IMG/VR virus record: IMGVR_UViG_3300040759_000057
Location: 1 to 23,166 of that record
Source: a virus
Reading direction: 5' to 3' (one strand)
Length of the DNA: 23,166 nucleotides
Position numbers and translations under genes: made by a program. Below are positions 6,097 through 21,202 of this stretch, in pieces. The notes under the pieces are model-generated. The model made no database searches, was not told the origin of the DNA, and saw only the letters and a program-made list of their open reading frames with translations. The first letter of the stretch is position 1. Each line of letters opens with the position of its first letter.

Positions 6097-6121
6097 GCGC
6101 TCAACGATGAGCGCTTTTTTT
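6097..6121 (+). terminator. Intrinsic terminator acting on plus-strand transcription
   Basis: The stem GCGCTCA (6097-6103) and TGAGCGC (6108-6114) has a 4-nt loop ACGA and is followed by seven T (6115-6121). It is a textbook terminator on the plus strand, yet no plus-strand gene lies nearby. The nearest is the cassette ending at 2358. On the minus strand the same hairpin immediately follows the stop of the 1013-aa gene but has no U-tract, so there it could only act as an mRNA 3'-end stabiliser or processing site. Confidence 0.7.
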
Positions 6122-9100
6122 ATGCTAGGAGTTGACTAGGAGTTGCATCCAAGATAAAGCCATGTAACTCAATCTCGGCGAACTGGTTTTGAGGTGCTAC
6201 GACCTGAAGACTTCCTCCCGAAACATAAGTCCCAAAAGTTGTGGAATCAACATCGATCGTAATGGTTGTAGCTGAAGTTGCGATGATATTAAAATACAGT
6301 GGATTGGCCAGGTTGACTGTATTTAATTGAGTCATCCCCACAACCTCGGTAATATAACATAATTGATTCGTATTGGGTTGTCCGGCGCATGTCAAAACGC
6401 AAGGATAGGCATTTGTAGCCCCTGTGACCGTTAAAGGAACTCCTACTTTGTCTAGAGAGCGCATTTGAATATCATTTAGACTAAATCCAATTTGAACTGT
6501 GTCGCCGATTAAAGAAGTATTCATCCGGTGCCAGGTTTGTGATTGAGATTGTGCTGTCACCATCTGAAGATTGATGTTTGCAGGAGTGAGGCCTAAATTT
6601 GTGCTTTCAGGACATGTGTAAAGGATAGCGCTATAGATAAGACTATTATTTGTCGAGATTTCAGGCACAATATTGTTAGGACTTAATGGAAATCCTGAAT
6701 AGTTATAAGGCGTTGTAGGATCTTGGCTCAAGAAAATAAGTAAAGTGATTTGGGAACCATTCGTCGTGGTAAAGAGATATTGCTGAGGGCCTAATCGTGT
6801 TTTTCTCGCATTTCCCCAAGAGACAGGAAATTGTTTTGTCTTGATAAGAGGAGCATACATCTTTGTGATGACACCCCCGCCCAAATATGTAAAGCCGCTT
6901 GACAATGCCGGAATCACATCAAAAGAATCATTTCCTACAAATTGGACAGAGAAGATTCGTTCATTGATCTCTGAACTTATTGTTCCTAGACATCCTGAAA
7001 TGATGATATAATCTCCGGGATCTAAAGAATGTCCAGGAGAAGTTATCGTGCTTCCTGAAATGCCTTGGATAAATCGGCTTTGAGATTCACCGGTTCCTTG
7101 ATCTCGAAAGACGACAAAGCCTTGTGAATTGCCTGCTATTACCTCCGGTTGCAGCTGAGAAGCGACGCCTGCATTCCAAGGTTCATTCCATTCAATCCAT
7201 GTCGGAAATTCAGATCCGATTGTAGCCCAAGTATAACCCCCTAGCCTTCTAAATGTACCATACGTAGTATAACTTTCGTTAAAAATCCCCCACGTTTGCT
7301 CTCTGTAGTTATATTGAAGAGTCTGAGTCGGGAAGATATCAGTAGTAGTTACATCATCATCTTTGAAATCTGGAACATAGGTGAAGTAAATCCATTCATT
7401 GATGAAGTCTCTCTGAGAACAAATCCTTTCGGCCCCATTGTTGAGAAGGCCCACCTCAAATATTTGATCGGGAATTTCCAAATCGACCCTTTGACTGCTT
7501 GTCTGACCTGTGATGACAAAACCACGACTTCCTAAACTCATAACACCCTGATCCATCGTGATGCTAGCAAAAGTGCCGACAGTTCCCCATTCAGCATTGA
7601 TGACAAAAAAGTTAAAAGGAACGATGTCATTTCCAGAATAGACGAGACGTGTCATAGAACGACTAAATTCCACGATGATAACGTCTTCATTTAACCCAAG
7701 GCTTATGATGGCTTGATCATTCCCTGCCGTTAAGAATCCACCGAATCCCGTCTGATCTTCCCAATAAGCAGTTGGAGTAGCCGTTTGGTGAATTGGAACA
7801 AGAATTGGAGTGAATGTAGTAGAAGATAATGAAGGATCTTCTGTGAAAGAAGCTGTATAATAAGGTGTACCATTTTGTGAATAAATGATTGTATCTTTTA
7901 GATAAACTTGACTGCCTGCGCTCGAGGTTTGGACGACCGGCCCAAAGAAGATTAATCTATCCTTGAATGGATAGATCATTCTCGCTCCTACGAGATAATA
8001 TTGAGCAGCTGGCAAATCGGCTATTGAAAAGGCAGCCCTCGAAAGAGGAGGAGAAAAATTAACCCATCCAAGCATTCCTGTAAGCATAGGATTGGTGGGA
8101 TTCCCATTGGTAGGATCGCCATCATACCATCTAATACAATCAATCGTAGGCGTAGCGCTGTTTGTTAAATATTGGGCGATTCCTCCAGTGCCATTTGTGG
8201 CTATAGTAGCATCAGGAAACTCTACAGAAACATTATTTGCATCTATAACCGTGACAACATATCCGGTCTGAAAATTGATACCGGTTGTCGTGACTACTTC
8301 GTTGATAAAAAGAAAATCTCCAACAACAAGACCATGAGCAGTTATCTGTAAAGTCACGATCGCTGGAGGGCCTCCAGATGTGACAGTCGCAGTCACTATG
8401 GGTTTAAATTGCATACCGATATTCGTAGTCTGAAAAGGCACCTGAATGCCATTTGTTGCCCACAAAGCGCCTTGATAATTCACAGTCCAAAATTGCTGAT
8501 AATTTTTCCCATTCCAGACAAAAGGAGTTGGTGTTGATTTAGCAACATAGCCAGGATAAGTAGCCGATGGAGGATTTTTATAGAAGTTTACATTATAGGC
8601 GGTGTAAGGAAATGCTGTTAAGAAAGCATAAGAATAAACTGTATCAAAGCCAAGATTACTAGGATATTGATTTAGAATAGAAACAAAATCTTCGAGACCC
8701 ATGACAGGAAGACCAGGATAATAAGTAAAAGAAGCAGAGATCAAATGACCTGCGGCAGCAGGAATATGAATAGCTCCTGTCGCATAATTGATTGTTCCTG
8801 AAGGGCTCAATGTTCCATTCTCGCCAGGATCTGTGTAGACGACGGTGGTTACAGTATCGGTGATCGTAACTGAACCTGGAATGATCGAAGAGGTAGTTTG
8901 CAAACTATAACCCGTAATTAAATTACCATTACCAGCACCATCCAAGGTGATAGATAGACCTGAAGGATTATAAGAAGAAATTGTTGAATTGAAAAATCGG
9001 CTTAGGCGAGCAAGAAAAGATGTTCCACGTTTTCTTTTCACTCTCCCTCTCCATTGGTAGGCATTGATCAAGACAGGAAATGAATCATTGTCGATATAGG

Positions 9101-9161
9101 GAGGAATCCTATCGTTTTTCAAACCTCGGTTGTATGGGCCGATGACTATTTTTTCTCCCAT
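6120..9161 (-). CDS. Large tail-hub / nozzle-like structural protein, 1013 aa
   Basis: The largest protein of the window. The N-terminus (residues ~25-50) has VLINAYQWRGRVKRKRG, a motif I associate with large tail/stabilisation proteins of P22 gp10-like and crAss-like phages. Residues ~93-153 form a beta module (PGSVTIT ... INYATGAI ... YYPGLPVMG) that recurs in the neck protein at 9777-10994. At least three short beta modules resembling phage E1-FCCH-like domains are at ~255-328, ~697-765 and ~910-986. The middle (residues ~380-680) has repeated aromatic strand segments suggestive of a beta-propeller hub. There is no coiled coil, so it is not a tape measure. GAGGTTAGT precedes the ATG. It probably forms the tail nozzle below the adaptor. 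Confidence 0.7.
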   Translation of the reverse strand: MGEKIVIGPYNRGLKNDRIPPYIDNDSFPVLINAYQWRGRVKRKRGTSFLARLSRFFNSTISSYNPSGLSITLDGAGNGNLITGYSLQTTSSIIPGSVTITDTVTTVVYTDPGENGTLSPSGTINYATGAIHIPAAAGHLISASFTYYPGLPVMGLEDFVSILNQYPSNLGFDTVYSYAFLTAFPYTAYNVNFYKNPPSATYPGYVAKSTPTPFVWNGKNYQQFWTVNYQGALWATNGIQVPFQTTNIGMQFKPIVTATVTSGGPPAIVTLQITAHGLVVGDFLFINEVVTTTGINFQTGYVVTVIDANNVSVEFPDATIATNGTGGIAQYLTNSATPTIDCIRWYDGDPTNGNPTNPMLTGMLGWVNFSPPLSRAAFSIADLPAAQYYLVGARMIYPFKDRLIFFGPVVQTSSAGSQVYLKDTIIYSQNGTPYYTASFTEDPSLSSTTFTPILVPIHQTATPTAYWEDQTGFGGFLTAGNDQAIISLGLNEDVIIVEFSRSMTRLVYSGNDIVPFNFFVINAEWGTVGTFASITMDQGVMSLGSRGFVITGQTSSQRVDLEIPDQIFEVGLLNNGAERICSQRDFINEWIYFTYVPDFKDDDVTTTDIFPTQTLQYNYREQTWGIFNESYTTYGTFRRLGGYTWATIGSEFPTWIEWNEPWNAGVASQLQPEVIAGNSQGFVVFRDQGTGESQSRFIQGISGSTITSPGHSLDPGDYIIISGCLGTISSEINERIFSVQFVGNDSFDVIPALSSGFTYLGGGVITKMYAPLIKTKQFPVSWGNARKTRLGPQQYLFTTTNGSQITLLIFLSQDPTTPYNYSGFPLSPNNIVPEISTNNSLIYSAILYTCPESTNLGLTPANINLQMVTAQSQSQTWHRMNTSLIGDTVQIGFSLNDIQMRSLDKVGVPLTVTGATNAYPCVLTCAGQPNTNQLCYITEVVGMTQLNTVNLANPLYFNIIATSATTITIDVDSTTFGTYVSGGSLQVVAPQNQFAEIELHGFILDATPSQLLA

Positions 9162-17146: not shown

Positions 17147-17713
17147 TTATTTCTTTATAACATCAAACCCATATTCATTCAAGAATTGTTTGCACCACTC
17201 AACCTTATCCTCTACCCGTTGTCCATGTGGATGAGAAGACGACCACAATTCTAGATTTTCTATACGATTATCATCCCGAATCCCATTCTTATGGTGAACG
17301 GTTTCTCCTTTATGCAAAGGACGCCCTAGGTGATTAGACATAACAAGAACGTGTTCAAGTATTTGATTTCGCTTTGACGCGTTTGGATGTTTTAAAGTAA
17401 TAATCCTATAACCATTCGCTTGAATATATCCAGAACCTTTAATATGTTTTTTGGGGCCAGCTAACTCTCTACCGTGATATTTCCTAGAAACTCCAAGTTT
17501 CTTGCAATTTTTAGTACAATATTTTGTGTTATTGACGCGTGACTGGAAAAAATTTTTCCCGCAAACAATGCATTGCAAATATTTCAGCCTTAGAGAGAAT
17601 CCTTGACGCGCACGATGATAAGCATTACATCTACATTTGTTGCTACAAAAATAGTGACGAGCCGCCTTTGTTTTCTTAATTAATTCTTTATCACAAATTA
17701 TGCAATTTTTCAC
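17147..17713 (-). CDS. HNH homing-type endonuclease with two zinc-finger motifs, 188 aa
   Basis: Two Cys4 knuckles come first (C4-C7/C23-C27 and C48-C51/C66-C70). The HNH domain then spans residues ~97-160, with HVLVMSNHLGRPL, the catalytic-type ETVHHKNGIRDDNRIENL (His140/His141, Asn143, Asn153) and LELWSSSHPHGQR. This combination is typical of free-standing phage homing endonucleases that cut DNA lacking the insertion. The start is GTG, overlapping the stop of the 23-aa ORF (GTGA). It sits between portal and small structural genes, where such endonucleases commonly insert. No intron boundary is evident and no neighbour appears split. Confidence 0.85.
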   Translation of the reverse strand: MKNCIICDKELIKKTKAARHYFCSNKCRCNAYHRARQGFSLRLKYLQCIVCGKNFFQSRVNNTKYCTKNCKKLGVSRKYHGRELAGPKKHIKGSGYIQANGYRIITLKHPNASKRNQILEHVLVMSNHLGRPLHKGETVHHKNGIRDDNRIENLELWSSSHPHGQRVEDKVEWCKQFLNEYGFDVIKK

Positions 17714-19997: not shown

Positions 19998-20026
19998 AAA
20001 AAAACCCGAAAACTCATGTTTTCAGG
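19998..20026 (-). terminator. Intrinsic terminator ending the RAMP-like/pentamer unit
   Basis: On the minus strand CCTGAAAAC and GTTTTCGGG form a nine-pair stem (one G:U) with loop ATGA, followed by seven U (complement of 19998-20004). It lies directly after the last pentamer tract and before the portal promoter region. Confidence 0.85.
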
Positions 20027-20030
20027 TTAG

Positions 20031-20085
20031 TTGCCATATCATATCAAGCCGTATCTTGCCAGATCCCTCCAAGCCCGATCCGTCC
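20031..20085 (-). repeat. Pentamer-periodic tract 1 (11 units)
   Basis: Eleven consecutive 5-mers in perfect phase. On the minus strand each begins with GG (six) or GA (five), followed by three variable bases; examples are GGCTT, GGCAA, GATAT. Not a tandem repeat in the ordinary sense: only two of five positions are kept. It is the last tract of the 3' UTR of the 212-aa gene and abuts the terminator. Confidence 0.85.
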
Positions 20086-20180
20086 ACAGTTTATTTAATT
20101 AGTTCTCAAAATACCTCACCCATGCCCACAATTCCGGACCCCGCACCGACATTCCACGCACGACCTGTCCACAGTTTATT
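20082..20180 (-). repeat. Direct repeat marking the 5' boundary of tracts 1 and 2
   Basis: A 14-nt identical sequence (GTCCACAGTTTATT on the plus strand) occurs at 20082-20095 and 20167-20180, and similarity continues into TAATT. The copies are 85 nt apart, exactly 17 pentamers. In transcription direction each stands at the beginning of its tract as an AT-rich box leading into GGAC. The AT-rich stretches between tracts hold no gene. Confidence 0.8.
20111..20170 (-). repeat. Pentamer-periodic tract 2 (12 units)
   Basis: Twelve 5-mers in the same phase as tract 1. On the minus strand seven begin with GG and five with one substitution (TG, GT or GC); examples are GGAAT, TGCGT, GGTGA. It is separated from tract 1 by a ~25-nt AT-rich spacer containing the boundary motif. 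No reading frame runs through it. Confidence 0.85.
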
Positions 20181-20199
20181 AATTTAGCTTCATCATCTC

Positions 20200-20304
20200 A
20201 CGCCCTAACTTACAATACCTGATCCCGCCGGATCTTGCAAGTCCGCACCCCACAATATCATTACTCACCATACCATATCTCGACCCGCCCCAGCGTTGCG
20301 AACC
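20200..20304 (-). repeat. Pentamer-periodic tract 3 (21 units)
   Basis: The longest tract: 21 5-mers without a phase break, starting 14 nt after the stop of the 212-aa gene. On the minus strand nine begin with GG and twelve with one substitution (GA, GT, GC or TG); examples are GGTAT, GATAT, TGTGG. Its phase is one base off that of tracts 1 and 2. It forms the first part of the gene's 3' UTR. Confidence 0.85.
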
Positions 20305-20318
20305 AGAAATAAAATGAT

Positions 20319-20957
20319 CTAAGCAGCCTCAGTCATTGTTTCTTCCAAAACTGCAAAATTTGTCACAACAAACCTACCATACGTTGGTCTGAAATCACCA
20401 ACCCCGATAAGACGACCAGCCGTTTGTAAAGAATCGTTTAAGTCCATAGGAGAAATGTATTCAGGAATATTGATCAACAGATCGAATGTCGCTTTCCAGC
20501 CGGCATGCATAGCAGGCCGTACGCGGTTTACACCGGCCCTTTGAATCACAACACGTCTTTTATCTTCATAATCCCATTCTTTTGTTCCAAGAGAGGCAAG
20601 AGAGGTCAGTGTGACGATAGCAGCTTTGTAAAGATCCATAGCCGATTTACGAGGTGACCGAGGATCTTGCTTAAATTTGGCAGCGTTGATCAAACTCATT
20701 CTCAGATATTCACCGGGTATACACAGAAAACCATTCTCATCTCGATAAACATATGTTTCGAGATCGTCTGTTTTTTTGGCTTTTGAACCCTTTTTAGCCG
20801 CAGATTTCATTTCAACCGATTCACAATTCCATCTATGAAAAAGAATGTCTGCCGTCCCTTGAATCGTTACATTTGCTTGATAAGGATATGACATTTCGAT
20901 AAGCTCTTTTGAGCCGTTTGTAGGCACTTCACCGCCTATATTTTTTGTTTTGGCCAT
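20319..20957 (-). CDS. RAMP/Cas7-like protein flanked by pentamer arrays, 212 aa
   Basis: The ATG has AGAAGG 8 nt upstream. After a ~22-residue polar start, a first strand reads YQANVTIQGTADILFHRW. A Lys-rich loop follows (residues ~51-65), then YRDENGFLCIPGEYLRMSLI (71-90), which resembles the IPGSSLKG-type helix start of RAMP-family Cas7 proteins. Residues 134-149 are basic (RRVVIQRAGVNRVRP). Residues 181-196 (GRLIGVGDFRPTYGRF) look like the glycine-rich loop of RAMPs. I also recall unnamed phage proteins with the same order of motifs. There are no other Cas genes and no CRISPR array. The gene stands alone in a terminator-bounded unit whose 5' and 3' UTRs are pentamer-periodic. A protein binding single-stranded RNA or DNA in a filament is the best inference. 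Alternative: a phage recombination protein. Confidence 0.65.
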   Translation of the reverse strand: MAKTKNIGGEVPTNGSKELIEMSYPYQANVTIQGTADILFHRWNCESVEMKSAAKKGSKAKKTDDLETYVYRDENGFLCIPGEYLRMSLINAAKFKQDPRSPRKSAMDLYKAAIVTLTSLASLGTKEWDYEDKRRVVIQRAGVNRVRPAMHAGWKATFDLLINIPEYISPMDLNDSLQTAGRLIGVGDFRPTYGRFVVTNFAVLEETMTEAA

Positions 20958-20982
20958 TTTGAAACCTTCTTAAAATATTAAT

Positions 20983-21056
20983 AATCCATACCATATGCTT
21001 GGTACCGCGCCCGGCCTATCCATTCCCAACAATTGCCTGCCGAATCTGGACTTACC
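20983..21056 (-). repeat. Pentamer-periodic tract 4, in the 5' leader of the RAMP-like gene
   Basis: Eleven 5-mers in phase at 21002-21056 (seven start with GG on the minus strand; examples GGATA, GGCCG, GGCAG). Three or four more follow after a one-base phase slip to 20983. It ends about 25 nt before the start codon, leaving the AGAAGG site free. Confidence 0.8.
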
Positions 21057-21070
21057 AAACTTAAATTTGA

Positions 21071-21076
21071 AATATA
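21071..21076 (-). promoter_or_regulatory. Weak -10 candidate for the RAMP-like unit
   Basis: TATATT on the minus strand lies between the upstream terminator and tract 4. No clear -35 is found. Some promoter is expected between 21057 and 21118 if the terminator upstream is efficient. Confidence 0.3.
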
Positions 21077-21118
21077 CATACAACATACCATCCCTTTATG
21101 CAAGCAATATTTTTAGAC

Positions 21119-21145
21119 AAAAAAAAGAGGGGAAAATTCCCCTCT
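21119..21145 (-). terminator. Intrinsic terminator ending the terminase transcript
   Basis: AGAGGGGAA and TTCCCCTCT form a nine-pair stem with a minimal AT loop (21126-21145), followed on the minus strand by seven U (complement of 21119-21125). It separates the terminase operon and tract 5 from the RAMP-like unit. Confidence 0.9.
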
Positions 21146-21147
21146 GA

Positions 21148-21202
21148 TAACCATGCCACAGATTGCCCTGCCACGGCACACTATATCACGCCATAGCCCG
21201 CC
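21148..21202 (-). repeat. Pentamer-periodic tract 5, 3' UTR of the terminase transcript
   Basis: Eleven 5-mers in phase between the stop of the 79-aa gene and the terminator. On the minus strand six start with GG (for example GGCGG, GGCAT), four carry one substitution, and one (TCTGT) departs at both positions. It shows that the pentamer pattern also sits outside the 212-aa gene's own transcript. Confidence 0.75.

Follow-up and report, generated by a model that had tools for sequence, protein, structure and literature searches.

The 23,166-nt window analysed here, a 23-kb virus fragment, carries between the terminase and portal genes of a tailed phage a minus-strand module in which a single gene for a 212-aa protein (vipr, 20319–20957) is surrounded by five tracts of pentanucleotide units, referred to below as the candidate guide RNAs vr1 to vr5. 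Read along the minus strand, the order is vr1, terminator, vr2, vipr, vr3, vr4, vr5, terminator. The first tract, vr1 (21148–21202, 11 pentamers), has the variable dinucleotides (NN) GG AT GT AT GT GT AG AA GT AT TA and is directly followed on its 3′ side by a predicted intrinsic terminator (21126–21145; 8-bp stem and U run, MFE −13.9, z −5.2). On the 3′ side of vr2 (21003–21062, 12 pentamers) there is a phase break (20983–21002), and then GGTATGGATT ahead of vipr. Beyond the gene, vr3 (20185–20304) runs through 24 pentamers in a single register and is the top-scoring period-5 tract of the window; it probably comprises two guides, fused or overlapping. It is separated from vr4 (20111–20170, 12 pentamers, NN code CA CG GT AT GG GG CC AT GG TG GA AT) by AATTAATAAACTGT (20171–20184), read directly from the minus strand. 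This block recurs almost exactly ahead of vr5 as AATTAAATAAACTGT and is a candidate spacer or tail, the second copy, AATTAA(A)TAAACTGT, being part of the directly read A/T-rich block that separates vr4 from vr5 (20086–20110). The module ends with vr5 (20031–20085, 11 pentamers, NN code CG CG TT GG CT AA AC TT AT AT AA) and, 3′ of it, a second predicted intrinsic terminator (20003–20028; 11-bp stem and U run, MFE −13.1, z −5.1). The sequences 3′ of the five tracts differ, two being terminators and two sharing the A/T-rich, unstructured block.

No accessory (vap) gene was found within the module. Two upstream ORFs of 79 and 61 aa were considered as accessory proteins and rejected, as neither has relatives near other vipr genes. 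In two related phages (L001 and L002), whose portals are 73–75% identical, the module is located 3′ of the portal gene and not in the terminase–portal gap; judging from this difference in position, it seems to be mobile as one unit. Elsewhere in the window, an HNH endonuclease gene, probably encoding a homing endonuclease, lies immediately 3′ of the portal gene (17147–17713), and a 1013-aa structural protein (6120–9161) gives three matches to E1_FCCH, a domain of ubiquitin-activating enzyme (whole-protein E 2e-13), likely the sign of a tail protein with a repeated beta-barrel.

Periodicity and composition of the tracts

The G–G autocorrelation of the minus strand was evaluated against 1000 dinucleotide-preserving shuffles. 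Across 19998–21202 it was elevated at lag 5 (z = 4.3), lag 10 (z = 3.7) and lag 15 (z = 4.1), in each case with 0/1000 shuffles as high. The flank downstream of the 212-aa gene gave z = 4.1 at lag 5 and z = 5.3 at lag 15 (0/1000 shuffles) and the upstream flank z = 3.1 at lag 5 (2/1000 shuffles), with no period-5 excess of G inside the gene (z = 0.4). The highest-scoring period-5 tract reached 36.3, as compared with a maximum of 20.1 among 60 shuffles of the whole window, and periods of 4 and 6–9 on the real minus strand scored at most 15.7. The 5-nt rhythm around the gene, which an initial annotation had picked out from the raw sequence without recourse to databases, is thus real on both flanks; the comparison with shuffled sequence that it proposed returned an excess at lag 5 and not the lack of one that would have spoken against it.

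The five tracts lie where the initial annotation placed them, apart from small corrections (vr3 is longer, and the phase break beside vr2 occupies 20983–21002). Its hand count of 66 units, 35 of them with GG, becomes 72 and 36 on recounting with slightly different tract ends. Of the remaining units, 34 have one G replaced and two have lost both. Nor are all three bases after GG freely variable: a pyrimidine (T or C) occupies position 3 of the unit in 57/72 cases, so the hypervariability is confined to the last two. The tracts are accordingly described as five arrays of 11–24 GGYNN units.

The 212-aa protein

The 212-aa protein matches PHROG 4652, a family without annotated function (E 1e-17); Pfam and NCBIfam provided no family name for it, and a weak PADLOC match was discarded as being at chance level. 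Its relatives include proteins of phage DSL-LC04, of SUSP1 and SUSP2 and of Gordonia phage Trine, all of which have in common the G-loop GxxDxRPxxGRF or a close variant. A profile of the clade aligns with SUSP2 Vipr over 161 columns (hhalign E 1.3e-12). When an AlphaFold model (pLDDT 86.9) was compared with the PDB, Cas7/Csm3 subunits from type VII and type III-A complexes came out closest (VIA Z 12.7, Foldseek E 1.8e-7). On the basis of this predicted fold the protein is a Cas7-like RAMP, and the earlier description of the gene as RAMP-like is borne out by the G-loop, the SUSP2 profile match and the model alike. Sequence identity to the Trine and SUSP2 proteins is 27–29%. In a protein tree the window protein belongs to a large clade that strongly supported forks separate from SUSP1 and from Trine, although branches are long and the placement of SUSP1 is rough; it thereby falls outside the SUSP1 clade, that of type II.

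VIPR and the arrays at related loci

VIPR (Viral Interference Programmable Repeat) was described in a preprint of April 2026 as an RNA-guided weapon of phages against rival phages (PMC13142463). The RAMP protein Vipr oligomerises on an RNA made of GGY/NN repeats, the vrRNA consisting of 9–16 YNNGG repeats. The NN dinucleotides provide the pairing to double-stranded DNA, with a single unread target base between one NN and the next (PMC13142463). RNP formation, DNA binding and targeting, and repression were reported for the model phage SUSP1, which represents type II and in which small-RNA sequencing revealed four vrRNAs (PMC13142463). This preprint, which is not peer reviewed, is the sole paper on VIPR found in the literature searched (PMC13142463). 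As a control, our tract finder was applied to SUSP1 and returned four arrays, three of them downstream of vipr and one upstream, a layout that agrees with the four vrRNAs sequenced in the preprint (PMC13142463); one of these four arrays has full GG in just 6/12 units.

Related loci were collected in two scans, which yielded 57 from genomes and 364 from viruses (80 kept). Strong GG period-5 tracts, one or more per locus, were observed in 136/149 related loci, beside the vipr-like gene and nearly always on its sense strand. The initial annotation had proposed looking for such tracts beside homologues, whose consistent absence would have weighed against its claim; the association of gene and arrays was instead the rule. 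In locus L004, eight guides of approximately 11 units each alternate with a short A/T-rich block, and in L010 full GG is present in 127/143 units, compared with 36/72 in the window. The longest array observed comprises approximately 227 pentamer units, 118 of them consecutive, 3′ of one vipr gene (L131:4633–5815). In two other loci the opposite strand carries a second array, 53 units long and over 3 kb distant from vipr (L115:395–659 and L118:492–756). A single cyanobacterial contig (Stenomitos rutilans JAHHIE010000002.1) holds two loci, L016 and L017, about 100 kb apart and with an identical vipr match and tract layout. A helicase gene is found near vipr in L132 and 22 more loci, and a gene for a RusA-like resolvase in 19 loci; these may have an accessory role or simply belong to the usual replication genes of phages, and both are absent from the window module. 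A search of the related loci for SUSP1 vap1 recovered SUSP2 only, plus a weak match in L059, and the gene is absent from the window. Neither the window nor 11 related loci gave an Rfam match to any known RNA, including hammerhead ribozymes.

Guide–target matching with a 1-nt skip

The skip code was examined in the clade by reducing 316 unique tracts, taken from the window as well as the related loci, to their NN strings and searching these against 1.07 Mb of those same loci with the arrays masked. With a skip of one base, 105 matches scored at least 15, as compared with 10 in the permuted control; the corresponding numbers at skips of 0, 2, 3 and 4 were 6, 8, 17 and 18. When guides were counted by their best score, eight reached at least 18 at skip 1, where permuted runs gave 0.18 on average, while none did so at skip 0 or skip 2 and three at skip 3, the last of which look like homologous arrays that had escaped masking. 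Collapsing related copies leaves about five independent guides among the eight, so that the result rests on few cases. Each of these is nevertheless strong, with matches of 30/32, 28/30, 23/24, 24/26 and 18/18, and in every case with an identifiable target gene the skipped base is the third base of a codon. At the level of sequence matching, the 1-nt skip rule is thus confirmed for relatives of the window's Vipr in the same clade.

The targets include vipr and helicase genes of other phages. In L098, the vipr segment 'NRTRPAMKAGWQA' is matched at 24/26 positions by a guide of L082, which fits its own vipr at 20/26 at best, and a guide of L028 fits the helicase motif 'VIPTGGGKTPVM' at 23/24, with 19/24 as the best site in its own locus. 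Likewise, a guide of L022 fits rivals at 30/32 and its own locus at no better than 22/32; a further own-locus best among the matching guides was 16/22. The poorer fit to own loci than to rivals is what would be expected if a weapon must spare its owner. A weaker match (20/22) falls on the opposite strand of the segment encoding 'DFLFHRWNTDA' in the L110 vipr gene. Across the five independent pairs, bases matched at 81/88 positions in GG units, 15/16 in units with one G and 6/6 in units with neither; these numbers are small, but together with the SUSP1 array they suggest that imperfect units are probably read normally.

For the window's own guides, the predicted targets are CANCGNGTNATNGGNGGNCCNATNGGNTGNGANAT for vr4 and CGNCGNTTNGGNCTNAANACNTTNATNATNAA for vr5. 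Exact patterns of 8–10 units per guide gave no match extending beyond chance in IMG/VR, and a search of 50 related virus records allowing up to three mismatches gave no target beyond one 18/20 match. This best single match, of vr4 to L010, was rejected since several hundred guide windows are expected to produce about as good a match by chance in the searched set. A 14/16 match of vr3 within the 79-aa ORF of the window does not follow the codon phase and was treated as chance, and phages yielded no match to a 24-aa peptide decoded from vr3.

Interpretation

In combination, these observations make it very probable that the window contains a VIPR locus, with pentamer guide-RNA arrays and a gene for Vipr, a minimal Cas7-like RAMP, in a tailed phage. 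It is a new example of the known VIPR kind and not a new kind, in a clade distinct from the SUSP1 type. Under the mechanism that this implies, the pentamer tracts would be transcribed into guide RNAs (vrRNAs), along which Vipr subunits would align with one GGY held per subunit; the NN dinucleotides would then pair with double-stranded DNA, skipping one target base between successive NNs, and the resulting DNA binding would repress genes of competing phages. In this scheme RNP formation, DNA binding and repression are carried over from SUSP1 (PMC13142463), to which the present analysis adds the arrays, the predicted RAMP fold, the kinship with SUSP1 Vipr, the gene–array association and the skip-1 target matches in relatives. 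We infer that the tracts of the window are expressed as guides, that their imperfect-GG units are used and that the guides are functional. The initial annotation had envisaged a 5-nt repeat register read by a protein, possibly the encoded one polymerising on its own RNA or on ssDNA. A register for the encoded RAMP along RNA is indeed the best reading, albeit with the variable bases as guide payload and not as filler in a polymerisation track, and the tracts, which had been taken for the UTRs of one gene, are best read as separate guide RNAs.

In the window, as in nearly all relatives, the tracts lie to either side of the gene and in its sense strand. This position would also fit an arrangement in which they are binding sites only, Vipr coating the leader and trailer of its own transcript to regulate itself and the intervening bases being uninformative. 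Such binding would resemble that of TRAP, a protein that reads about 11 evenly spaced short RNA motifs (triplets) at a spacing of approximately 5 nt; TRAP is unrelated to Vipr, and the variable bases in its sites hold no information on a target. However, a binding track indifferent to sequence would not yield skip-1 matches of relatives' NN strings to coding targets far above permuted controls, and DNA targeting has been demonstrated for SUSP1 (PMC13142463), so that this explanation is highly improbable. Still less credence can be given to a CRISPR-related array or to a chance or low-complexity artefact: a RAMP protein does adjoin a repeat, but there is neither a repeated unit with spacers nor any other cas-like gene in the module, and chance is excluded by the shuffles and by the tracts at 136/149 related loci. 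We agree in this respect with the earlier verdict that the tracts are not a microsatellite, an iteron array or a CRISPR array.

More weight is due to the view that the window holds a decayed VIPR module, with an intact gene and eroding arrays, although this too is unlikely. Erosion would account for the many imperfect units (full GG in 36/72 units of the window, against 127/143 in L010), for the phase break in vr2 and for the failure to find targets of the window guides in IMG/VR or the 50 related virus records. Conversely, imperfect units of relatives match their targets as GG units do, SUSP1 itself has an array with GG in only half of its units, and vr3 maintains its register across all 24 units. 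The clade may represent a VIPR type of its own, whose repeat is relaxed to the point that one G of the pair suffices for register, working without accessory gene or structured tail, and carried as a cassette that moves within the head-gene operon with guides directed against rivals' vipr; this extension of the VIPR reading is put forward tentatively.

The analysis provides an independent check of a recent and surprising claim, that of a noncontiguous RNA code for DNA recognition. The skip rule was recovered by comparing sequences alone, in a clade separate from the SUSP1 type that is the main subject of the preprint's experiments (PMC13142463), and for guides of this clade the vipr and helicase genes of other phages are a better match than any own-locus site.

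Comparison with known systems

The window locus shares with the type II VIPR of SUSP1 a homologous, phage-borne RAMP with the same G-loop, and arrays of GGY/NN pentamers on both sides of the gene in the sense strand. It differs in that vap1 is missing, that no SUSP1-like structured tail was found 3′ of any of the five tracts, that its Vipr belongs to a separate clade, and that the second G, not the first, is the one most often replaced. Measured against the 9–16 repeats of VIPR, the arrays have 11, 12, 24, 12 and 11 units, of which only the 24 of vr3, possibly two guides, lie above that range. The remaining VIPR types likewise have the GGY/NN or a related consensus in variable layouts, including overlapping guides (PMC13142463). 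The identical repeats, unique spacers and cas genes by which CRISPR–Cas is recognised are not seen in the window. With Cas7-family subunits such as Csm3 and type VII Cas7, Vipr has in common the RRM-like RAMP fold (Z up to 12.7); in contrast to the systems built on those subunits, VIPR relies on a single protein without a CRISPR array, on a unit of 5 nt and not 6 nt, and on noncontiguous pairing.
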